This document shows, one piece after another, positions 2,281 to 50,267 of a DNA stretch of 64,000 nucleotides. The notes under the pieces are model-generated. The model searched no databases. It had not been told where the DNA came from and saw nothing but the letters and a program-made list of their open reading frames with translations. Within the stretch, counting starts at the first letter, position 1, and each line of letters opens with the position of its first letter. The stretch is from Bacteroidaceae bacterium (lineage in GTDB: Bacteria; Bacteroidota; Bacteroidia; Bacteroidales; Bacteroidaceae): contig JAFROT010000013.1 in the NCBI GenBank assembly GCA_017429525.1, positions 186,001-250,000 on the forward strand. Reading direction: 5' to 3'. The position numbers and the translations under genes were made by a program.

Positions 2281-3514
2281 TTTCTATTTCATTTTTTTGT
2301 TTTTCGTTCATTCCTTTATCTGGTATAACAAGATTCCTGCAGATTTCTTCCGCCATAGCATTGAGGGCGACACAATCTGCACGGCTGATATGTCGTTTTC
2401 CACCATCATACGGCCAGGGACTTAGAATGAGCAAGCGCCCTGCTGCACAAGCATCGAAGAGTGCATCGGTGGGTTTGTAGTAGTCACGGAATCCATTATC
2501 CGTCAGGCAAACAAACGGCCATTTTTCACGCAGCAAGACCTGCATGACCTGCTTCTCTTGGGGCGAGATGAAAGGCGAGACCATCACCACGCCCTCACGA
2601 GCCATCAACACACGGCTATTCATGTAGTCGCGCAAAGCCTGATTGTCCCCAGCCTCTGCAGCCTTCACCATCGCGCTTCGCACGTGCACCACATCAAAGC
2701 GCCCTCCTGTGAGCAAAGCCACGTTGCCCACACCGCTATACGCCCTCGAGCCTATCACGATGTCCTTTTGCACACGGAAGAAGCCTGGCTTCAGGCGTTT
2801 AGTAGCCAAGCGCTGCGGATTCATGTCCATATAGCGGATGGTGTTCTGCAGTTGGGAATATCGTGCCATCGCACGGATGAACGGCATCTCCACAAAAACA
2901 GGCTCCAACCGGTAATAAGCCTCATCGCCCAGCTGTCCGCACAGCCCAGCAGCCACCTCCTGCAGCCTTGCGCTCCTCTCCTTCAGCCTTGCGTTCCCCT
3001 CCTGCAGCCTTGCGCTCCATTCCTTCAGCCTTGCGCTCCCCTCCTTCAGCCCCTCCCTCTCCAGCTCTCTTGCGCCCCCTTCTTTGAATCTCTCCCTCAT
3101 CTGCTTCCCTTCTTCATATTGCGCCCGAATGTCATTCGGGCAAACAAAAGTAGCCCCCGTGTACGAGCAAGCACGCCCCAGCTTCTTGCTCGCCTGCCAG
3201 AAGCCCCGCACCAGCGTCCCTATGCCCTTCGCCATCGTCCGTTGCACATACAACACTGCATGTAGATGGTCAGGCATGAGGCAGAAATGCAGCACCCTCA
3301 CCTCCGGATGATGCGATGGAATACTCAGCAGGCAGTCCACCAGAGCATCGCCCAAAGCCGAGCGCACCACCTTGGCATGAGCAGGATCGTTGCCTGCCGC
3401 AGTAAGACGCCCCAGCACAGGCTGTCGGCTCGTCACAGTCAAGGTGATGTGATACAGCCCCGCGCCCTTCCACGTAGTGCCCGGCTCCTGCCATTTCCAA
3501 GTCTCCTTTTCCAT
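2261..3514 (-). CDS. RAYT-like (IS200/Y1-family) HUH transposase with C-terminal extension
   Basis: 417 residues. The first 110 match the Y1 transposase fold, with the HUH motif MPDHLHAVLYV (His83, His85); the probable catalytic Tyr228 lies in IRYMDMNPQR. Between these sits an insert (about 115-205) holding a REP-like palindrome read as CPNDIRAQYEEG and about five 8-11 residue repeats of the type ARLKEGS/ARLQEGN, encoded by a roughly 21-bp DNA repeat (2951-3053). The last 170 residues form a second domain (FISPQEKQVMQVLLREKWP) of unknown role. Promoter box TATATTTG is at 3536-3543. No terminal hairpins of a complete IS were seen, which together with the palindromes suggests a domesticated RAYT. 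Confidence 0.75.
   Translation of the reverse strand: MEKETWKWQEPGTTWKGAGLYHITLTVTSRQPVLGRLTAAGNDPAHAKVVRSALGDALVDCLLSIPSHHPEVRVLHFCLMPDHLHAVLYVQRTMAKGIGTLVRGFWQASKKLGRACSYTGATFVCPNDIRAQYEEGKQMRERFKEGGARELEREGLKEGSARLKEWSARLQEGNARLKERSARLQEVAAGLCGQLGDEAYYRLEPVFVEMPFIRAMARYSQLQNTIRYMDMNPQRLATKRLKPGFFRVQKDIVIGSRAYSGVGNVALLTGGRFDVVHVRSAMVKAAEAGDNQALRDYMNSRVLMAREGVVMVSPFISPQEKQVMQVLLREKWPFVCLTDNGFRDYYKPTDALFDACAAGRLLILSPWPYDGGKRHISRADCVALNAMAEEICRNLVIPDKGMNEKQKNEIENDTIRN
3109..3145. repeat. REP-like palindromic repeat, copy A (inside the RAYT gene)
   Basis: The core GCCCGAATGTCATTCGGGC is an inverted repeat around a central T. The 37-base unit matches 6734-6770 in the same orientation with seven mismatches, including the flank CTTCNTATT before the palindrome. 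In the RAYT frame it is translated as CPNDIRAQYEEG. Confidence 0.75.
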
Positions 3515-3719: not shown

Positions 3720-4622
3720 CTATTTTACGATGATATTCCTTAGCACCTCGTAGTCGCGAACGACGCTATAGGTGACAGCAGCGCTGGAGATGGTGGCGAA
3801 ATGTCGGCGGGCACATTCTATCTTCACGCGCTCCGTCTCGCGGTAGTCCGTCACCTCATCGTTGCGATAGCCCTTGGTCTCGGCCACGAAATAGATGTGC
3901 TTGATGTCTGGTTCCTCTTTGAAGACGATGGCCCAGTCGGGATTGTAGTGCCCCACAGGTGTATTGATATAGAAACCGTTAGGCAACTTGGTATAGACGG
4001 CCACCTCGTTCTGCACCTCAAGGCTCTGGGCGAAGTTCATCTCGATGCCTTGTGAATCCACGACCACGATGTCATAGAGCGACTTCTGCGACTCCAGCGC
4101 GTTCACGCCCAGCTTGCCTTTCAGCGTGGCGGCGCTGAAGATGTCGGAGTCGTACGCTTGATCAAGTCGGTGGTATTGGATATGCTCCACCACGGCAATG
4201 GCCTTGCATTGGTTGATGATGTTGCACGCCTTGATGATGAACTCCTCGAGATTGGCCATGAACATATTGAACGTCTTTGGACGTATCTTCTGCAGGATGC
4301 TAACGACCGCCTTGCGCGTCAACCCCGTTCCTTCCACTAACTTCCCTATCAGGTCATATTTCACGCCCTCTCCCACCAGTTCGTGCACGCTCTCCGCGTC
4401 GGCTTCGCTGACCATCATCGCGTTACCCTCCAACAGTTGCTGCCGACTCTTGATGTCGTTCAGTGTGCCCGTCACCACCTTGATGCGTATTTCCGTTACT
4501 TGCAAGTGGGCATCCAGCTCGATGACGGCCCTGCTGATGAGGTCTTCCGTACACGGGATTGCAATATCAACCCGTAGGACACCTCTACAATGTCTTCGAC
4601 TGGTTATTTGATTGTGGTAGTT
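3720..4622 (-). pseudogene. C-terminal remnant of a type III restriction endonuclease (Res) subunit
   Basis: The frame is open from 4622 to the stop at 3720 but has no ATG near its start; the first plausible codon is TTG at 4505. The sequence matches the C-terminal quarter of type III Res proteins: KYDLIGKLVEGTGLTRK, EEFIIKACNIIN, AVYTKLPNGFYINTPVG, NPDWAIVF and IYFVAETKGYRND, which contains the nuclease-type ETK. The family is normally about 900-1000 residues with an SF2 helicase; those domains and the partner methylase Mod are missing here. It follows directly on a promoter and leader shared with the restriction operon at 50 kb, so it may still be transcribed. I infer a decayed locus. Confidence 0.85.
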
Positions 4623-4716
4623 TCAAATGGTCAAAGCCAAAGCGTTAGTGTCGCTTTTCCAATATGTCGTGTCCCGCCCGTCGCCGCATGGACGTGGGTA
4701 AGACGGGGCAAAGATA
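4577..4716 (-). promoter_or_regulatory. Promoter and leader shared with the 50-kb restriction operon (copy 1)
   Basis: TATCTTTG at 4709-4716 should start transcription near 4702. The next ~125 bases align with the leader at 50100-50267: an identical 15-base block (minus strand GAAACTACCACAATC, 4610-4624), a conserved ACATATTG block (4661-4668 region) at nearly the same spacing (57 versus 55 bases), and between them a hairpin AAAGCG...CGCTTT whose stem bases differ but whose pairing is kept. Confidence 0.6.
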
Positions 4717-29664: not shown

Positions 29665-29898
29665 GTGATCTTTGAAACAAGAGTACCGCACCCATGGTAC
29701 TTAAAGCATATAGCCGCATCGGTTGGATTGGGAGACTCATCAATAATAATCAGAAAACCGAGAAAGCTTCGCGCTCCAATGGCGGGCTGCGCCCTTCGGG
29801 GTAACCTCTCACGCAGAGGCCGGCAGATTACAAAGGACGTGAGCACTCAAATCATTCATACTCGGAGTTCTCATCACATCGCCGATGCGGCTTTTTTT
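29665..29898 (+). ncRNA. Unidentified structured non-coding RNA, about 230 nt
   Basis: It starts just after a canonical promoter and ends in a T run (29892-29898). AGCCGCATCGG (29712-29722) pairs perfectly over 11 bases with CCGATGCGGCT (29882-29892), closing a domain of about 180 nt directly before the T run. Inside, CCGAG near 29758 can pair with CTCGG near 29860, and CTGCG with CGCAG near 29787-29817; a small 5' hairpin GTACC...GGTAC precedes. No reading frame fits. Size, closing stem and central open region resemble 6S RNA, but I could not recognise 6S, tmRNA or RNase P consensus sequences. Confidence 0.6.
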
Positions 29899-32591: not shown

Positions 32592-32599
32592 GGGTGGGA

Positions 32600-32732
32600 A
32601 AGCGATCTGCATCGCGCCGCTACAACCAACTACCCTTGCTGCGGTCAAGCCCTGGGGGATTCGAAGGGAGCTGGCCGTACAGGACTTTCCCATGTCTGCT
32701 GTACGCGAGCGCTCTACTCGTTAAGCACACCG
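32600..32732 (-). ncRNA. ffs: Probable signal recognition particle RNA (4.5S-like)
   Basis: Between the two tRNAs the minus strand contains CCCCCAGGGCTTGACCGCAG followed by CAAGGGTAG, which fits the domain IV hairpin of bacterial SRP RNA (CCAGG ... AGCAAGGG). Flanking segments pair around it (CCAGCTCCCTT with AAGGGTAGTTGG), and a perfect side hairpin CGTACAG...CTGTACG lies upstream. The ends are approximate. Location beside a tRNA-Ser gene is common for this RNA. It would assemble with Ffh for co-translational membrane targeting. Confidence 0.65.
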
Positions 32733-42826: not shown

Positions 42827-43234
42827 CTACTTTCTACCCGCCAAAATCTCCATCATCTCTGCCGGTGTCACAACAATAGGAGCGTGAGGGAAGTGCTTGG
42901 CATTGCCAGTTACCAGATAGGCATCCTGCTTCGAAAGTGCAACTTCGAAAAAAACAACATCCTTGGGATCTGGAAAGAACTCACCACTTAGGACACGTTC
43001 CCCACGAACCCCGTTCATAAGGATTCGATCAACTGCCTTTTTTACCAGATCTTCGGGTATGTGAAACTTCTCGCGTCTCAACACTTCGGAATACTCTTCG
43101 ATAATCTCCTCGTTGAAGACAGGTACTATTTTTCCTTGCAATACAGCCTCCCACACTTTTGAGGTTGCCGCTTGCAGATTCTTGCTAATATGTGCCGACA
43201 CGATGACGTTTGTGTCGATGACTGCATAAATCAT
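42827..43234 (-). CDS. PIN-domain toxin (ribonuclease)
   Basis: 135 residues with PIN acids: Asp7 (VIDTNVIVSA), Glu in NEEIIEEYSEVL, Asp in FPDPKDVVFFEVAL and the TGNAKHF end motif. It fits the 'putative toxin-antitoxin system toxin, PIN family' group, predicted Mg-dependent RNases. Its start overlaps the antitoxin gene by four bases, typical of toxin-antitoxin operons. Confidence 0.88.
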   Translation of the reverse strand: MIYAVIDTNVIVSAHISKNLQAATSKVWEAVLQGKIVPVFNEEIIEEYSEVLRREKFHIPEDLVKKAVDRILMNGVRGERVLSGEFFPDPKDVVFFEVALSKQDAYLVTGNAKHFPHAPIVVTPAEMMEILAGRK

Positions 43235-43681: not shown

Positions 43682-44971
43682 CTACACCTGAAGCATTGAG
43701 TTGATGTCCGTCACGTACGACTGCCGGATGGTATATCCTTTGGGAGGATGCGTCAAGGCGAACTGGCTAATCTTCTCGGCTATATCCTGCCGTTCCGCTG
43801 CAATCTGGAACAAGATGTAAATCTCCTGTCCTTTCATCTTGTGCGGAGTATCTTCCAACTGTGATGCTGTGACAAGGCGAGGACCGGGCTTCAGCTCAAA
43901 AACGATGGGCGAGCGCAGTTTATGCAGCACAAGATACCGCGCATTCATAAATCCCTCGGCCAATGCGAGCGACCCGGAAGAGTCGCCCAGCCCTATGCCA
44001 TAGCGACAGACCTTGCGTATCTGCCCTGCTGTCTGTTCGCAATAGTTGTCATCAACAACCACGCACTTCCCAATGGGCATCTGCCCTTGCTTCTCTATCT
44101 GAGCGCCTATCTTATCTTGAGGATTATCCTCCAGCTTACATTCCGTCACATAGAAATGCTTGCGGAGTTCTTCAACTAAAGCTCCTTCGCCATTGTCTTT
44201 CCGCTCTATGGCGAGGGTGTAGATGCTCTTCTCGTTGGGTGTCCGATAGAGTTTTCCCAGCAGTTTCTGGAAATGCGTGGTGATGTATTGCTCGGAGTCG
44301 GCTGCATTATATCCCTTCATGGCATAGAATGTGTACCTTGCACTCAAGATCTCCTGCACTCTCTCACGGAAGCGTTTCCTCACGTCCGTCTTCCATGCCT
44401 GCTTGCTGGCTGCGTTGTTGCGGGCATACATGGCCAGCACAAAGAGGAAGTTCACGTCGTAATGGCTGAGCAACAACGTGTCGCGGTCGAACAGTCGGTC
44501 GCTGAACTGTGACGATTCATGCTGGTTCTGTCCCTCATGCAGACGGAGGTTCTCTGCGCCATAGTCCAGCCTCTCAAAGTCCACCTTTGCGCTGATGAAG
44601 AAGTTTGGCAGCACGTTGTACCCCTCTGTCCTGTCATCGCGCAGGCGTATTTTGTAACGTTCGTCCTTACATTTTGTCGTTCCTTTCAGCGCATCGAAGC
44701 TCCACTGTATCACGTTCTGGGCGTAGGTAAACTGCTTGCTGATAGAGTTCTCGCCCACAGGTGTACTGTACTTATAATATTTCGAGTCGCCAATGTAATA
44801 GACGGCAGTCTCTTCGCTTGTCGGCAACAGGATGTCGTCTATCCAGAGGTGGTCCACAATCTTCCCATCGCTTTGTTCGGCCAGCCGCTTGGGCAACTGG
44901 GCTCGGTCGGTGCCTATCAGTTCATCGATGATGGCTTCGAACAGATTGCAGGTGTCATTTTTCTCTATCTG
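43682..44971 (-). CDS. Restriction nuclease-like reading frame without a normal start
   Basis: The frame is open from 44971; the first usable codon is TTG at 44896 (giving 404 residues), although IEKNDTCNLFEAIIDELIGTDRAQL upstream also looks coding. A PD-(D/E)xK-like nuclease core is suggested by DDILLPTSEETAVYYIGDSKYYKYSTP; LlaJI/McrC-like nucleases are the nearest resemblance, uncertain. It is in the +1 frame relative to the upstream methylase, and removing one base from the T5 run at 44958-44962 would fuse them. It is GC-richer than the upstream genes. It may be a 5'-truncated remnant or a coupled second subunit. Confidence 0.6.
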   Translation of the reverse strand, partial: QIEKNDTCNLFEAIIDELIGTDRAQLPKRLAEQSDGKIVDHLWIDDILLPTSEETAVYYIGDSKYYKYSTPVGENSISKQFTYAQNVIQWSFDALKGTTKCKDERYKIRLRDDRTEGYNVLPNFFISAKVDFERLDYGAENLRLHEGQNQHESSQFSDRLFDRDTLLLSHYDVNFLFVLAMYARNNAASKQAWKTDVRKRFRERVQEILSARYTFYAMKGYNAADSEQYITTHFQKLLGKLYRTPNEKSIYTLAIERKDNGEGALVEELRKHFYVTECKLEDNPQDKIGAQIEKQGQMPIGKCVVVDDNYCEQTAGQIRKVCRYGIGLGDSSGSLALAEGFMNARYLVLHKLRSPIVFELKPGPRLVTASQLEDTPHKMKGQEIYILFQIAAERQDIAEKISQFALTHPPKGYTIRQSYVTDINSMLQV

Positions 44972-47522
44972 CTACCAATATCGGAACAAGCGTCAGAGCC
45001 TCCTCTATAAGTTCATATGCATTCTCTCTAAATAAAATCTCAGCCCATACTCTATCAACGTCACGGACTTGTGGAGAACGGAGGTTGATAAATTCGTTTA
45101 TCGGAGTTGACACTATTCGTTGTTTCTCTTCTTCTGACAATTCCGATGTGACAGGAACATGCAAAGGCTCATAATCTTCTTTCTCTAGTTTACGTAATCC
45201 TTTTCTGTTATTTCCATATGCCTCACACTCCAACTGATAAAAAATTGTAGAGAACCATGAAGCAAGTATCTTTGCCCCCATCTCATCAGCCTTAATAACA
45301 AAGAAGTTTGTCGAAACAAAGGTAGGGCGGTCACTTACGAATACGCGCCCATTGCTACGAATCATTCGTGGCAACATTACACTATTCGCAGGTGATACAC
45401 GTTTAGACTCCTTCTTTAATATTGCCACATAATCGTCAAGAGACTTTTTATCACGACGCTGCTTTTTGTTTTTCGCATTTTCTTCTTCAATGTACATATC
45501 CACGACTTTGCAAATCTGGCGGTCAGACATTCCATCGACATTGAAAAATAAAGATTCACCTGCTCCTAATGCTAACTTGTCGAACTTGGCATTGTTCAGC
45601 CCAGGAGCCAAATGACCCTTCATTTGTTTTCGCGCCTTGACAAAGAAGGGATTATTGGGTTTCATATAAAGAAGATCTGTACATCCGTCATTCCCGATTT
45701 TTCCTCGCTGATAATCTTTGAACTCGCTGTCTGAAAGTGTTGTCAGGAGTCTCGATGTAGCAATGTTAGTTTGAACGAAGTTCTGTGCATCACGCTTCGT
45801 CATATTGCCGATTTGCCAGCCATCATCTATCATCTGCACTAATTTCTCTTTCGGCAGCAGACAACCTTCAAATTGACTATTGATATTTGCAATCTCTTCT
45901 ACGCTGAACTCGGATTTCAAAATCTCAGAAACAGTACTGGCGTCTATTTCAGATATGATTTCGTTGCTATACAGATAGAGGATCCCGTTTGTATGAGTTC
46001 CTTTCACGCCGATGGCGATGGACGTGTTCTGTGTAACGCCTTCAAACAACTTTTCCTGTGGATAGTTGAAAATCAGTTGCAGCCCGAAATCATTCAAGAG
46101 CATAGTCCTGATAGCTCTACTTGCATCACCCTTTGTCGTAAAATGGGTGTTGGGAAGAATGACAGCTATGACTGTTCCGTCCTTTGCCAAAGTTGACACA
46201 AGCTCCACAAATGGGCCTTCAAGAGGCATTTGGCCACTTGTCGTTGTTGGATTACACCCTTTCAGTAGTCGGATTTTTCTGTATAGTTCAGCTTTCCTCG
46301 TCACACAATTCACTCCTGTTGCTGCAAGATAAGGAGGATTCATTACGATTGCCCTTACATGTTCGAACTCTACAGTTGGCAGGTCTGCAATGTTCATTGA
46401 CATGATCCGTGCTGTATTATCCTTTTCTATCGTAGAAGCAAATTTCAGTCCGATTCTAAGAGAAAGCAACTGCAATAGCCGCCTGTTGATGTCATTAGCT
46501 ATCAATTGAGACGGTTGTATATGTTCATATACATTTGCTGCTGCACAAAGAAGGCTGCCACTACCAGATGCGGGGTCCATAATCTTTTCGTTTGCCTTCA
46601 ACTCGCCTGTTATACATTTTACCAACCAAAGCATTAATATAGCTAAATCCGTATCTGTAGGCACTTCGCCCTCATGTTTATGCTCCTCAGACACCACTTT
46701 GTGCATGACGCTGGCAAGTTCATCGGCATCAACATATGTTTTACCCAAGTCAAATAATTGCTGCAAAAGCGTTCGACTGGTTTCAACATTTCGCTGTCTT
46801 GATGCCAATTCTGGCAAAGTGAAGACGTCCTTGAAGTTCACTTTTAAGCCCTCTCGACAAATCAGGTCAACCCTGTTTGACAATTGCGATATCGTTCTTA
46901 GTTCGTTTCGGTTTATCTTTGTGAACGAGCCTCGGATATATTCATAGAACAATGCCACCAGAGCTTTTTCCCACTCTATGTCTTTATCAAGCTTGTCATG
47001 TATTACATCAGCAAACTGCTTGAACGAAAGCATATACTTTCCACTGTCATTTTTTATAACGAAGATAAAGTGTGCGTATTGCTTTGTCAAGTCTGTTACA
47101 AACCGTTCCCGACTTACATCAGCAAATTTATGGTTGAGCGAGAAGCCAGGCTCAATAATCTGTTCGTAAACATTGGGGCGATCCTTGTCGAACTTGAAAA
47201 GACAGGAACTCTCAAGGTTTGTCAACAGATAGTATCTGCTTTCCAGCTCACTGTCTCTCAAAGACTGAACATAACTCATCGCTTGATATTGATAGCGGGT
47301 ACTATTGACAGCAGCAATAGTGCGTTTCACCTCAACCACACACAAAATCTTGTTAGTTTCCTTGCAAGCTATGACTAAGTCCATCTCAATAGTACCAACA
47401 TACCGATGGTGCTGCACTTCATAGTCCTTGTCTAGATTCAGTTGCCTCAATGCTCCTTCAAGAGCCTCCTTACATACAGGATGGAAGCACTCAACTTCTT
47501 TGTCTGTATTCTTTATCCACAT
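44955..47522 (-). CDS. Combined nuclease-N6-adenine methylase (type IIG/type I-like restriction-modification protein)
   Basis: 855 residues. The N terminus has a PD-(D/E)xK-like pattern (TIEMDLVIACKETNKILCVVEVKRT, about 44-68). The central methylase domain has SAM motif I MDPASGSGSLL (315-325) and catalytic NPPYL (395-399); the last 300 residues resemble a target-recognition region (YGNNRKGLRKLEKEDYEPLHVP). Such single-chain enzymes cut and methylate DNA. The gene starts 8 bases after the C5-methylase stop. Base composition is clearly AT-richer than most of the window, pointing to horizontal transfer. Confidence 0.8.
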   Translation of the reverse strand: MWIKNTDKEVECFHPVCKEALEGALRQLNLDKDYEVQHHRYVGTIEMDLVIACKETNKILCVVEVKRTIAAVNSTRYQYQAMSYVQSLRDSELESRYYLLTNLESSCLFKFDKDRPNVYEQIIEPGFSLNHKFADVSRERFVTDLTKQYAHFIFVIKNDSGKYMLSFKQFADVIHDKLDKDIEWEKALVALFYEYIRGSFTKINRNELRTISQLSNRVDLICREGLKVNFKDVFTLPELASRQRNVETSRTLLQQLFDLGKTYVDADELASVMHKVVSEEHKHEGEVPTDTDLAILMLWLVKCITGELKANEKIMDPASGSGSLLCAAANVYEHIQPSQLIANDINRRLLQLLSLRIGLKFASTIEKDNTARIMSMNIADLPTVEFEHVRAIVMNPPYLAATGVNCVTRKAELYRKIRLLKGCNPTTTSGQMPLEGPFVELVSTLAKDGTVIAVILPNTHFTTKGDASRAIRTMLLNDFGLQLIFNYPQEKLFEGVTQNTSIAIGVKGTHTNGILYLYSNEIISEIDASTVSEILKSEFSVEEIANINSQFEGCLLPKEKLVQMIDDGWQIGNMTKRDAQNFVQTNIATSRLLTTLSDSEFKDYQRGKIGNDGCTDLLYMKPNNPFFVKARKQMKGHLAPGLNNAKFDKLALGAGESLFFNVDGMSDRQICKVVDMYIEEENAKNKKQRRDKKSLDDYVAILKKESKRVSPANSVMLPRMIRSNGRVFVSDRPTFVSTNFFVIKADEMGAKILASWFSTIFYQLECEAYGNNRKGLRKLEKEDYEPLHVPVTSELSEEEKQRIVSTPINEFINLRSPQVRDVDRVWAEILFRENAYELIEEALTLVPILVADREK

Positions 47523-47530
47523 ACAGGTTT

Positions 47531-48553
47531 TTAGTTTAGATACTCTTTCAGTTTTGTTGCCAACACGTATGCCAGATGCGGCGGTACGGCATTGCCTACT
47601 ATCAGGTTTTTCCCCTGCTTTGATTTCGAGACAAACTCATAGCTATCAGGGAATGTCTGAAGACGCATTGCTTCTCTTAGGGTAATGATGCGATCATGCT
47701 TATAGTGAATATTGCACCCCACATTGGGTCGATTGAAATAGGTATTAATCGTGTATGCCGGTTTGTTTGGTAGCATACGCCCATAGCAAGTTGTGTGACC
47801 ACCGTCTCGCTTCAAGCGCTTTATCCTGACAGATGGCACATCGTCGGGTATATCCATATAGTTGCCTCCAGGCTTAACATGGGAACAGATATATTGGTCA
47901 AGTTTGCTCATCGTTGGATAATCGTGTTCAGAAATTCGCACTGAAGTACCCGCCATTGGCAAATCACCGATTGCCTCCTCAACGCTTACATATTTTTTCT
48001 TTCCGTCTGTTCCCTCATCGTTATGAGTAGTAACGGGAAATTCAAACTGCCCGTTTTTCAGGCCCACGATAATCACTCGCTTTCTCAGCTGTGGCACTCC
48101 GTAGTCGGCAGCATTCACCAAATGCCAAGAGACATGATAGCCTGCCTCTTCAAAGGTTTTGAGAAGACCATCAAGTATCTTATGTCCTTGTTTATCTTTT
48201 GCAGATATTAAACCAACTACATTCTCAAACAAAAAGGCTTTTGGCGTTACATGCTTGATAATGTCCAAATAACGCCAAACCAATCTGCCTCGTTCATCAT
48301 CGCATTGGCGTTTGCCTGCCAAAGAAAATGACTGACAGGGAGGGCCACCTATCACAATGTCAGCCTTGGGAATATCGTTGATGTCGATAGAAGTTATATC
48401 GCTACACAAAATTTCTTTTCCGACATTACGCTTATAGGTATTGACCGCATCTTGATTGTTGTCAATAGCCCAGACGATATCATATCCAGCCTGCTTGAAG
48501 CCGAGGTCAAGCCCCCCACCGCCAGAAAAAAGACTAACTGTTTTATTATTCAT
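47531..48553 (-). CDS. DNA (cytosine-5-)-methyltransferase
   Basis: 340 residues with the full C5-methylase motif set: SLFSGGGGLDLGF (I), GGPPCQSFSLAG with nucleophile Cys73 (IV), FENVVGL (VI), QLRKRVIIVGL (VIII) and GNAVPPHLAYVLA (X). It probably protects host DNA in the restriction operon, or modifies the second strand of an asymmetric site. ATG 48553 (MNNKTVSLFSGG) overlaps the stop of the upstream methylase gene by eight bases, so translation is coupled. Confidence 0.93.
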   Translation of the reverse strand: MNNKTVSLFSGGGGLDLGFKQAGYDIVWAIDNNQDAVNTYKRNVGKEILCSDITSIDINDIPKADIVIGGPPCQSFSLAGKRQCDDERGRLVWRYLDIIKHVTPKAFLFENVVGLISAKDKQGHKILDGLLKTFEEAGYHVSWHLVNAADYGVPQLRKRVIIVGLKNGQFEFPVTTHNDEGTDGKKKYVSVEEAIGDLPMAGTSVRISEHDYPTMSKLDQYICSHVKPGGNYMDIPDDVPSVRIKRLKRDGGHTTCYGRMLPNKPAYTINTYFNRPNVGCNIHYKHDRIITLREAMRLQTFPDSYEFVSKSKQGKNLIVGNAVPPHLAYVLATKLKEYLN

Positions 48554-49985
48554 AATGAGCAAGTCGTTTTGATTTCAATTCAAAATATTGTTCTTTAACA
48601 CCGCTGTATCCATAATAAGACGCCAAAAGGTTGGTGATGGCATCTATATGGCACTCGTCAGAAGACTTAACCAGTTCTTCGGTAAGTTGAACAAGCTTTA
48701 CTTTATCCTCTTCCTGAATAGTTTCGGGATGTGGCACCTTTATATCGTCGATATCATATTTCTGTAATTTAAGTAATCCTTTGCCATAGCTTTTGCCTAA
48801 ATCCTCCAATTGCCTATAAACATAATAATTGTTCAGAAGAGCCATTAGCAACAGCGAATTATAACGGCTGCTAATCATATAGAAATTATCTCTTACATTA
48901 CAGTTCTCAACGTTCAGAACAAATTTTAGGTTGTTTCGGACAATATAAGAGAAAACTATTTGGGCTGTTTCAGGTACGGTGATGTAATACCAAGGCTGGT
49001 CCTCGTTTATCAATGTTTTCAGCGTCAGAGGCTTCCCTTCCTTCAATATAACTTTTGCACTGTTTCCAAGATATATTTCCTCTTCCTCACTTAAAATATC
49101 GCTACTTTTAATAGCCAACAGCTTGTCTTGCCGGCAGTGCTTAGTTGTATAACCAGTACAGTCTTTAGGCGAAGAAAGAATGCTTACCAAGTGGGTTTGC
49201 GTGAAAAGAGGAGGATTGACAAAAAACTTATTGGCTCCTGTAGTTATACCTCGTCTTATACTGGCTACCGACCGAAGCCTTACCAGATTGCCTGATATCT
49301 CATTTTTTAAATGCCTTACATCTTCTATCAACAAACTATCGTCCTGTGTTATCCGCATTGTTTGGTAGCGTGTTTCTCCACGCATTCCCTTTATAAACTT
49401 TAGAATGCATACATCTACCATTGGTGAACCCTCAAAGGCTTCCCCTTCGACGTTAATGAAATCGGTGATGTATCCATGAAGCTTCATTTGCTCACAGAAT
49501 TGTTTGCCAACGGATGTATTAGTCCATGAGTTAGGGAAAATCGCTATCAGTTCGCCACCTTCGCGAAGCAACAGTATGGCCCGCAATATGAAATACATAT
49601 AGAGATTGGCTTTGCTGGATATATTCATTATCCAGCAAGCCGATTGTAACTTTTGCTTAGTGACACCTAGGGGTGCCAGTTTTTCAAGCTCTTCTTGACG
49701 CACGTATGGAGGATTCATAATGATGCCGTCAAAGGCCCCCTCGACATCAAAGAAATCACCATTCTTCAAGTGACAACGTGTTTCGTCAGGATTTCCAAAA
49801 GCAGCATACGAGACTTCGTCAATCTCTACGCCATAAACTACAAACTCAGTATTGGCAAGCAGGCTATTTACAAAGACACCACGACCGAAACAGGGGTCAA
49901 GCACACATGCCTTCCCCGTAATCGTGAATAGCCTTACCATGAAGTCGGCTACCGTTTGCTTTGTATATACCTGTCCTAAATTCAT
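48546..49985 (-). CDS. N6-adenine DNA methyltransferase (Eco57I/TaqI-like)
   Basis: 479 residues: SAM motif VLDPCFGRGVFVNSLL (28-43), catalytic NPPYV (91-95), then LREGGELIAIFPNSWTNTS and a C-terminal recognition-like region with repeated aromatic/hydrophobic segments (SRYNSLLLMALLNNYYVYRQLEDLGKSYGKGLLKLQKYDIDDIKVP). It is the first enzyme gene of the operon and overlaps a leader frame ending at 49982 by an ATGA junction. Low GC compared with flanks. Confidence 0.88.
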   Translation of the reverse strand: MNLGQVYTKQTVADFMVRLFTITGKACVLDPCFGRGVFVNSLLANTEFVVYGVEIDEVSYAAFGNPDETRCHLKNGDFFDVEGAFDGIIMNPPYVRQEELEKLAPLGVTKQKLQSACWIMNISSKANLYMYFILRAILLLREGGELIAIFPNSWTNTSVGKQFCEQMKLHGYITDFINVEGEAFEGSPMVDVCILKFIKGMRGETRYQTMRITQDDSLLIEDVRHLKNEISGNLVRLRSVASIRRGITTGANKFFVNPPLFTQTHLVSILSSPKDCTGYTTKHCRQDKLLAIKSSDILSEEEEIYLGNSAKVILKEGKPLTLKTLINEDQPWYYITVPETAQIVFSYIVRNNLKFVLNVENCNVRDNFYMISSRYNSLLLMALLNNYYVYRQLEDLGKSYGKGLLKLQKYDIDDIKVPHPETIQEEDKVKLVQLTEELVKSSDECHIDAITNLLASYYGYSGVKEQYFELKSKRLAHYE

Positions 49986-50215
49986 TCAACTATAATCTTT
50001 ATAATTTCATTGTACATTGACTCCCGTAAATCGTACTTTACAGGGTAGTTCAAGACACCCCAGCGGCACACTACGGAGTTGTATATAATACACTCCGTGG
50101 AGTTACCCCTGCAAAGTTCTTGATTGCCAATTCGATTGTGGTAGTTTCGATTAGACCAAAAACAAAGCGCGATAACGCCTTTCAATATGTAGTGCTCCAC
50201 CCTCTCCGGCTCCAC
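49982..50215 (-). other. Open leader frame in front of the restriction operon
   Basis: 77 codons (MEPERVEHYILKGVIALCFWSNRNYHNRIGN...) ending in an ATGA overlap with the methylase start. It covers the leader shared with 4.6 kb, where the matching DNA has frame-breaking length changes, so RNA structure rather than protein seems conserved there. A hairpin CGGAGTGTATTATATACAAC-TCCG lies at about 50073-50098. Confidence 0.35.
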
Positions 50216-50267
50216 TCTCCTCAGAGAGCATCAAGGCCGATATGGGCAGATAGCAGTGGCAAAGATA
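50100..50267 (-). promoter_or_regulatory. Promoter and leader of the restriction operon (copy 2)
   Basis: TATCTTTG at 50260-50267. The leader holds the same GAAACTACCACAATC block (50134-50148) and ACATATTG block (50182-50190) as copy 1, with the intervening hairpin AAAGGCG/CGCGCTTT. Outside these blocks identity is much lower. Confidence 0.6.

Follow-up and report, generated by a model that had tools for sequence, protein, structure and literature searches.

In riboswitch expression platforms and T-box leaders, two mutually exclusive helices compete for one strand, and the later of them is followed by a U-run. The leader RNA of Bacteroidales described here resembles these classical attenuators in its mutually exclusive helices with a common strand and in the U-run after the later one, but no ligand domain was recognised in it, and it precedes many unrelated defence operons rather than the genes of one pathway. 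The EAR (eps-associated RNA) of Bacillus is likewise a structured promoter-proximal RNA before a long operon, but the Bacteroidales RNA matched no Rfam family: in the window (the whole stretch of 64,000 nucleotides from a Bacteroidaceae bacterium that was analysed) none was found in Rfam 15 at the gathering threshold, and nine loci with intact copies, searched up to an E-value of 1, gave three weak matches, all below the gathering scores. In Bacillus velezensis, the dfn operon has a LoaP-dependent leader with antitermination by a NusG paralog, according to PMC12691694. There, too, an RNA element and an intrinsic terminator are part of a long 5' leader ahead of a long operon, and a specialised NusG paralog is involved, as may be the case in Bacteroidales. 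The RNA element of that leader is one small UNCG hairpin, whereas the Bacteroidales RNA is about 300 nt long with long-range pairings, occurs in another phylum and stands mostly ahead of restriction, defence and surface genes. The capsule loci of Bacteroides are under the control of UpxY, a NusG paralog encoded by the first gene, which acts by antitermination (PMC12632263). These loci belong to the same bacterial order, and a minority of the leader loci is also headed by a NusG paralog, but most of the sampled ones are not.

Two leaders of this kind lie about 45.5 kb apart on the minus strand of the window, and, as judged by alignment, each corresponds to a truncated 5' part of the RNA of about 300 nt. 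Copy 2 has a -7 promoter element TATCTTTG at 50260..50267 (read from the sequence, as is that of copy 1 at 4709..4716), followed by the core and middle domain at 50020..50197, in which the core model R1 matches positions 50066-50197 with an E-value of 2.8e-27. By alignment to the relative L056, it lacks the left arm, the right arm and the U-run of intact relatives; the likeness extends to about 50020, just ahead of the first methylase gene, which starts at 49985. The truncated core of copy 1 (4556..4673; R1 match 4556-4673, E 5.8e-19) runs into a Res remnant, and the likeness dies out at about 4560. The terminator half is gone from both copies.

The genes behind the two leaders, all on the minus strand, are unrelated, as the initial annotation had stated. 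The operon behind copy 2 begins with an N6-adenine methylase (48546..49985; Pfam Eco57I 1.4e-15; M.TaqI chain 2ibs 1.5e-9), continues with a C5-cytosine methylase (47531..48562; PF00145 8.3e-79) and a full-length BpuSI-like type IIG restriction enzyme-methylase (44955..47522; BpuSI_N and BpuSI_TRD; 3s1s 5.5e-140 over residues 7-853), and is followed by a 404-aa ORF (43682..44896) that had no match of its own in the Pfam search and resembles part of the 716- to 781-aa proteins behind three intact leaders (L037, L043, L046); a match to the LlaJI endonuclease family was obtained for one of these proteins. Behind copy 1 there is a remnant of a type III Res protein (3720..4505), the sole Pfam match of which is the endonuclease domain (PF19778, 5.7e-34, residues 140-251 of 261).

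The shared features that had been claimed for the two leaders were all recovered. Both have the element TATCTTTG, the 15-mer GAAACTACCACAATC is identical in copy 2 (50134..50148, minus strand) and copy 1 (4610..4624, minus strand), and the block ACATATTG begins 42 and 43 bases ahead of it, so that this spacing differs by no more than one base; the promoter lies at unequal distances from ACATATTG (70 vs 42, a difference of about 28 bases). The arms of the hairpin have changed on both sides between the two leaders and still pair. Local alignment of the leaders gives a score of 110.5, compared with a mean of 35.4 and a maximum of 63 in 2000 dinucleotide shuffles, and the likeness goes beyond the 15-base block, as the part upstream of it alone scores 56, a value reached by none of 2000 shuffles, which averaged 23.7 and peaked at 42.5. 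The 15-mer has no other perfect copy in the genome to which the window belongs. Across the order, it was found exactly in 3 of 295 genomes including this one, and the two outside sites have no leader around them, which is why the 15-base block alone is no marker. In relatives, it forms a hairpin loop that pairs with a later GGC-loop-GCC hairpin.

Matches of R1 were obtained in 173 of 298 genomes of the family Bacteroidaceae, in 30 of 246 other genomes from the order Bacteroidales and, weakly, in one of 197 genomes from the rest of the phylum, and the RNA family is one of gut and rumen Bacteroidales. It has apparently not been described so far: a literature search brought up no description of this RNA, and PMC8040213 reports thousands of candidate RNAs, among which a piece of it may be. 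In total, 185 elements were located and 148 were kept, those with an identical core or too close to a contig end being dropped; the rows L006, L010, L013, L025 and L030 were excluded by name.

A promoter element of the Bacteroidales type precedes the leader in 132 of 144 relatives, as compared to 8/120 to 34/139 in controls. An intact copy begins about 50 nt after the promoter and has about 270 nt from the start of the core to the U-run, behind which the first operon gene follows. There are two possible partners for its left arm: an early strand, with which it gives a long interrupted rod, and the right arm that follows, before the U-run; these mutually exclusive helices are both conserved. 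They were assessed in two hand-picked alignments, A5 with 43 of the 55 subfamily II copies that have a U-run and A6 with 32 of 82 copies of subfamily I. The rod covaries in both subfamilies, with 226 double-change cells in one alignment (61.1 shuffled, sd 8.3; 27-48 slid) and 121 in the other (39.6 shuffled; 24-58 slid), and the terminator helix has 95.3% and 90.7% of its cells paired (slid 40-52%), the structures being derived from the consensus of the alignments under test, which biases all comparisons with slid controls in their favour. Double-change cells of the terminator helix amount to 15 vs 4.0 and 38 vs 10.9 in shuffles; in subfamily II the changes are mostly one-sided G-U changes, and slid controls had up to 14 double-change cells vs the 15 observed. 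A U-run of at least 4 T is present in 137 of the 148 copies, among which the terminator duplex beats shuffles (z below -2) in 131 and the antiterminator duplex in 92, failing to do so in 45.

The apical part of the putative terminator hairpin is 30 nt and thereby long for a terminator, and because of this long loop a consensus scan missed it and flagged a different hairpin of the element. Four hairpin pieces were folded alone; two of them gave z-scores of only -2.0 and -3.7, and the two from subfamily II, cut without one arm, were uninformative. RNAalifold found no pairs in the short core, as the pairing partners are about 150 nt further on, and gave -8.8 kcal/mol for subfamily I and -38.2 kcal/mol for subfamily II with the first full alignments. 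The suggestion of an RNA leader is upheld by the covariation in the helices of relatives and by the position before mutually unrelated restriction modules; the part of the RNA that would time restriction expression is missing from both window copies.

The next gene has the same direction as the leader in 74 of 79 loci (the upstream gene in 45 of 78) and starts at a median of +371 from the core. Unrelated restriction-modification and defence operons are found behind the leader, as well as acyltransferase or surface genes and some NusG paralogs of the RfaH-like kind. A sample of 60 loci was hand-picked across the E-value range of the best 150 R1 hits listed; the Pfam tally comprises the 50 of them in which the first gene is co-directional and starts no more than 900 nt away, and PADLOC covered following and upstream genes, first genes excepted. 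The supposed link to restriction-modification is borne out by the C5-methylases: with 150 listed of 158 element hits, in 40 genomes chosen for holding elements, 31 of 95 matches have an element at most 3 kb upstream on the same strand (0.16 expected), and none has one on the other strand or downstream. Of the two results that the initial annotation had named as contrary to its view, neither was obtained. To speak of restriction modules only was too narrow, given the other defence genes and those for acyltransferase, MBOAT, CotH, sulfatase and NusG paralogs. Similar leaders often stand before unrelated first genes: among 412 locus pairs with at least 270 identical leader bases, the first genes are homologous in 200 and not in 212, and with fewer than 180 identical bases they are homologous in 178 of 6854 pairs, all of these being rough counts with mechanically called genes and near-identical strains kept in.

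A strand that takes part in two conserved helices, the later of which ends in a U-run, is the anatomy of a terminator/antiterminator attenuator, and the leader lies between promoter and first gene, has the conserved stem before the U-run, and has in the rod of both subfamilies an alternative helix in which one strand of the terminator is engaged. The RNA looks built to stop or allow transcription of the following operons, and it is at a probability of about 0.6 that we regard the window leaders as 5' fragments of cis-acting leader RNAs of Bacteroidales that work as such attenuators. The left arm with the early strand would be the antiterminator, with which transcription would continue into the operon of restriction, defence or surface genes, whereas the left arm with the right arm would form a long hairpin like an intrinsic terminator, at which RNA polymerase would stop. 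Family, position and orientation, gene association and the conservation of the two mutually exclusive helices are established by the analysis; the U-run hairpin would probably terminate transcription, and a signal or factor would presumably set the balance between the two states.

Alternatively, RNA polymerase could be modified for processive antitermination by the RNA, either by itself or together with an RfaH/UpxY-like protein, so that long foreign operons are read to the end and the U-run hairpin is merely the first terminator passed. The operons are indeed long (median 3 genes and 3395 bp; at least two genes in 54 of 69), element and gene are separated by an extra structured module in 27 of the 148 loci and by one of another type in 15, the LoaP leader likewise combines an RNA hairpin with an intrinsic terminator (PMC12691694), and in the 40 genomes with the 150 listed hits 8 of 65 NusG paralogs are directly behind an element (0.05 expected), one of them matching RfaH chains at an E-value of about 0.003, as compared to 0 of 38 in the best-matching, presumably housekeeping, NusG group. 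This explanation is nevertheless unlikely, as it does not call for an antiterminator fold that is dedicated to the left arm of the terminator itself, a feature that marks a local attenuator, and a NusG-like gene is the first gene in only 1 of the 50 tallied loci. It is still less probable that the leader is a passive structure that sets mRNA stability or translation without any transcription decision. A closing stem may span the U-run and a third strand behind it may pair with the right arm (14 double-change cells vs 8.0 shuffled, with 36 of 500 shuffles as high), in which case the full-length structure would matter too, but the conserved U-run directly after a long hairpin and the two conserved helices with one common strand would be left unexplained.

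An independent small RNA that acts in trans could have such a promoter element and a terminator-like end, but an orientation and a distance that are fixed relative to the next gene speak for action in cis and make this very improbable. Hardly credible is a DNA element, be it a landing sequence with exchange of the modules behind it, as the initial annotation had considered, or an inversion site: the pairing strands do form an interrupted inverted repeat, similar leaders have unrelated first genes, and one first gene is a resolvase (L042), but the repeat shows the covariation from locus to locus that RNA helices have, all 75 aligned copies have a single orientation, with no second orientation of the middle part as in the invertible DNA switches of Bacteroides, no recombinase family is common among the neighbour genes listed, and plasmid and phage collections had no match to the element. 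A mobile insertion element was rejected in view of the fixed position and orientation relative to the gene. An open frame is present in some copies, but a leader peptide or conserved protein was also dismissed, as in 32 of 134 copies the distance between two conserved blocks does not keep to the commonest frame.

One portable leader-RNA switch could be the common control of immune systems that are otherwise unrelated, namely type II, IIG, helicase and probably phosphorothioation systems, and of some surface and NusG-paralog operons. New defence modules would be captured behind it and so be subject to a common choice between stop and read-through, which infection or an RfaH-like factor may release; this wider idea is tentative and rather doubtful. 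A portable RNA leader shared by unrelated systems would be one answer, testable in genetically tractable Bacteroides, to how a cell can acquire a new restriction system without damage to itself and how numerous defence systems in one genome stay silent until they are required, and the RNA is a common structured one in its family for which Rfam gave no match. In the window, the switch half is lost from both copies, and the BpuSI-like operon should therefore now escape attenuator control. As a minor observation, copy 2 contains an open frame of 72 codons from GTG 50200, the stop of which overlaps the methylase start.

The two leaders of the window, copy 1 at 4577-4716 (minus strand) and copy 2 at 50100-50267 (minus strand, in front of the BpuSI-like restriction operon), are homologous. 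Their local alignment scores 110.5, against a maximum of 63 among 2000 dinucleotide shuffles, and the promoter element, the 15-mer, the equally spaced second block and the compensating hairpin arms all lie where the initial annotation had placed them. The similarity also holds outside the common 15-base block, as the part upstream of it alone scores 56 (shuffle maximum 42.5). An Rfam scan of the window gave no family above threshold at either leader.

When the copy 2 leader was used as a blastn query against 201 genomes of the family, 38 places were among the matches listed at E < 1e-3, both window copies counted in; at E <= 1, 176 genomes were matched, mainly by short chance matches. In the loci of relatives that were read, the similarity extends about 200 nt past the window leaders; it closes with a long hairpin and its U-run, and a gene comes next. 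R1, built from 28 sequences, models the 133-nt core by sequence alone. At E <= 0.001 it matched in 173 of 298 family genomes, with up to 11 matches per genome, in 31 of a sample of 247 genomes from the order (own genome counted in), and in 2 of 198 sampled across the phylum. One of these two is the own genome, the other matched at E 2.9e-4, and this phylum result bounds the false-match rate of the model. When named genomes were scanned with a pattern, 81 stretches turned up, and the 80 listed are all from Bacteroidales by title, the genera including Prevotella, Bacteroides, Mediterranea, Phocaeicola, Parabacteroides and Alloprevotella. Nothing matched in the plasmid and phage collections. One contig (G512:C76) carries tandem elements on its minus strand (3161-3292 and 4020-4082), the second match being partial.

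The element is a 5' leader. A promoter-like TA-N1-3-TTTG lies within 130-20 nt before the core in 132 of the 144 elements with enough upstream sequence, in 129 of these at 30-63 nt, as compared with 8/120 to 34/139 in six control windows, and the downstream gene runs in the direction of the element in 74 of 79 loci, as does the upstream gene in 45 of 78.

Two subfamilies were aligned, I with 32 rows and II with 43. The early strand forms a long rod by colinear pairing with a later strand, and the loop of the hairpin in the initial annotation takes part in it (CTACCACA with TGTGGTAG, CTTCCAC with GTGGAAG, CTTAGGAA with TTCCTAAG). Since the structures were drawn from these same alignments, they are favoured against slid controls, and with this in mind the rod has 226 double-change cells in one alignment (61.1 shuffled, sd 8.3; 27-48 slid) and 121 in the other (39.6 shuffled; 24-58 slid). 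The rod's left arm pairs alternatively with a right arm directly before the U-run; this terminator helix is paired in 90.7% of cells in subfamily I and 95.3% in II (slid 40-52%). Its covariation support is strong in subfamily I, with 38 double-change cells against 10.9 shuffled and 1-16 slid, and moderate in II, where 15 such cells stand against 4.0 in shuffled alignments but slid ones reach 3-14. Among 137 elements, the terminator duplex does better than its shuffles (z below -2) in 131, the antiterminator duplex in 92 and the duplex with a third, left-arm-like strand behind the U-run, which might take part in the pairing, in 61; 137 of 148 elements carry a run of four or more T. A stem ACTACATA/TATGTAGT might enclose the whole RNA. 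The short, conserved core hairpin AAGGCGT..ACGCTTT (for example at 2993-3011 of locus L056), which has a T-rich stretch behind it, was called terminator-like by a scan (1 found, 0.4 expected) and is possibly a pause site.

Leader similarity is loosely tied to that of the first genes, which are homologous in 200 of 412 pairs with similar leaders versus 178 of 6854 with dissimilar ones. A second leader module follows the first at 27 of 148 loci, and one of another type at 15 of 148. At locus L040 such a structured module lies about 340-560 nt past the core start, between element and start codon; modules of this type end in a hairpin and T-run adjoining the ATG, with a loop complementarity of ATTACGAC with GTCGTAA.

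Among the first 20 loci, which are biased because they were found with a restriction leader as query, the first gene of 15 encodes a methylase, restriction enzyme or SNF2/ResIII helicase (C5 methylases in 11, then TdeIII, an N6-methylase fusion, a SNF2/ResIII helicase, and an EcoRI-type methylase with a GmrSD/HNH protein after it); the other five have a resolvase, MBOAT, CotH, an acyltransferase and a truncated element. In 50 first genes from a hand-picked 60-locus sample, Pfam matches at E <= 0.001, a few of them under Pfam's own cut-off and with overlapping counts, were DNA_methylase 7, MmeI_Mtase 5, Eco57I, SNF2, PLDc and acyltransferase 4 each, N6_Mtase 3, MBOAT 2, and TdeIII, Type ISP, sulfatase, hexapeptide, BspA-type LRR, NusG and PAPS reductase (perhaps DndC, at a guess) 1 each; 15 of 30 sample proteins scanned singly were without Pfam match. 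The 88 following genes gave ResIII 8, Eco57I 7, N6_Mtase 6, Tubulin_2 5, DUF488 4 and HaeIII 3. The commonest families of 59 upstream neighbours are mostly housekeeping, with no restriction family among the 25 commonest of 118. PADLOC, many of whose models overlap one another strongly, gave matches at E <= 1e-10 to 367 families in the following and to 45 in the upstream genes; the latter include single matches to reverse transcriptase, ThsB and AbiEii, so this control is not empty. An operon recurring downstream of the element at L090, L106, L110 and L111 (the last visible in part) encodes proteins of about 400, 140-150, 465 and 1135-1160 aa; the 1135-aa protein has no sequence match in the PDB, and the Tubulin_2 matches are guessed to belong to operons of this type.

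The association holds also in reverse. Among the 95 C5-methylase matches in 40 element-bearing genomes, a few of which are pieces of a single gene, 31 are preceded by the element on their own strand at no more than 3 kb (0.16 expected); none has it upstream on the opposite strand and none downstream. By hand count in the same lists, 14 of the 31 follow elements outside the 28 model sequences.

As one strand is common to terminator and antiterminator, the RNA has the anatomy of an attenuator. The leader would decide whether RNA polymerase stops or continues into the defence or surface operon behind it, with transcription presumably ending at the putative terminator according to some signal, which may be of benefit to newly gained restriction systems. 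The main rival is processive antitermination of the RfaH, UpxY or LoaP kind, which could be combined with attenuation. Of 103 NusG-family matches in the 40 genomes, the 38 with the best E-values were treated as housekeeping genes; none of these lies directly behind an element, versus 8 of the 65 other paralogs (0.05 expected). A NusG/RfaH-like paralog is the first gene at L111, seven more standing behind elements in the 40 genomes, and one NusG-like first gene matches Spt5 and RfaH chains (E 0.0004-0.003). Attenuation is a well-known mechanism; to our knowledge, one portable attenuator before unrelated immune operons is new, and neither Rfam 15, searched with element sequences, nor literature searches yielded a matching family or a description of the RNA.

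In the window, copy 2 retains its promoter, the core and, as far as about 50020, the middle domain, followed by the methylase at 49985, and copy 1 retains promoter and core and then runs into the Res remnant. Both lack left arm, right arm and U-run, and the window restriction operon is therefore an escapee from the switch and no example of a working one. A search of the own genome (assembly 86% complete) with R1 gave no copy beyond these two. A 72-codon open frame (49982-50200, minus strand, GTG at 50200) spans the truncated copy 2 leader, its stop overlapping the methylase start, and may be due to chance. Behind the restriction operon lies a PIN-family toxin-like ORF (42827-43234, minus strand; TIGR00305, E 4.5e-11), adjoined by a 102-aa ORF. 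Rfam also places a Bacteroidales-1 RNA (suggested 6S) at 29712-29898 (plus strand) and a Bacteroidales small SRP RNA at 32592-32698 (minus strand).
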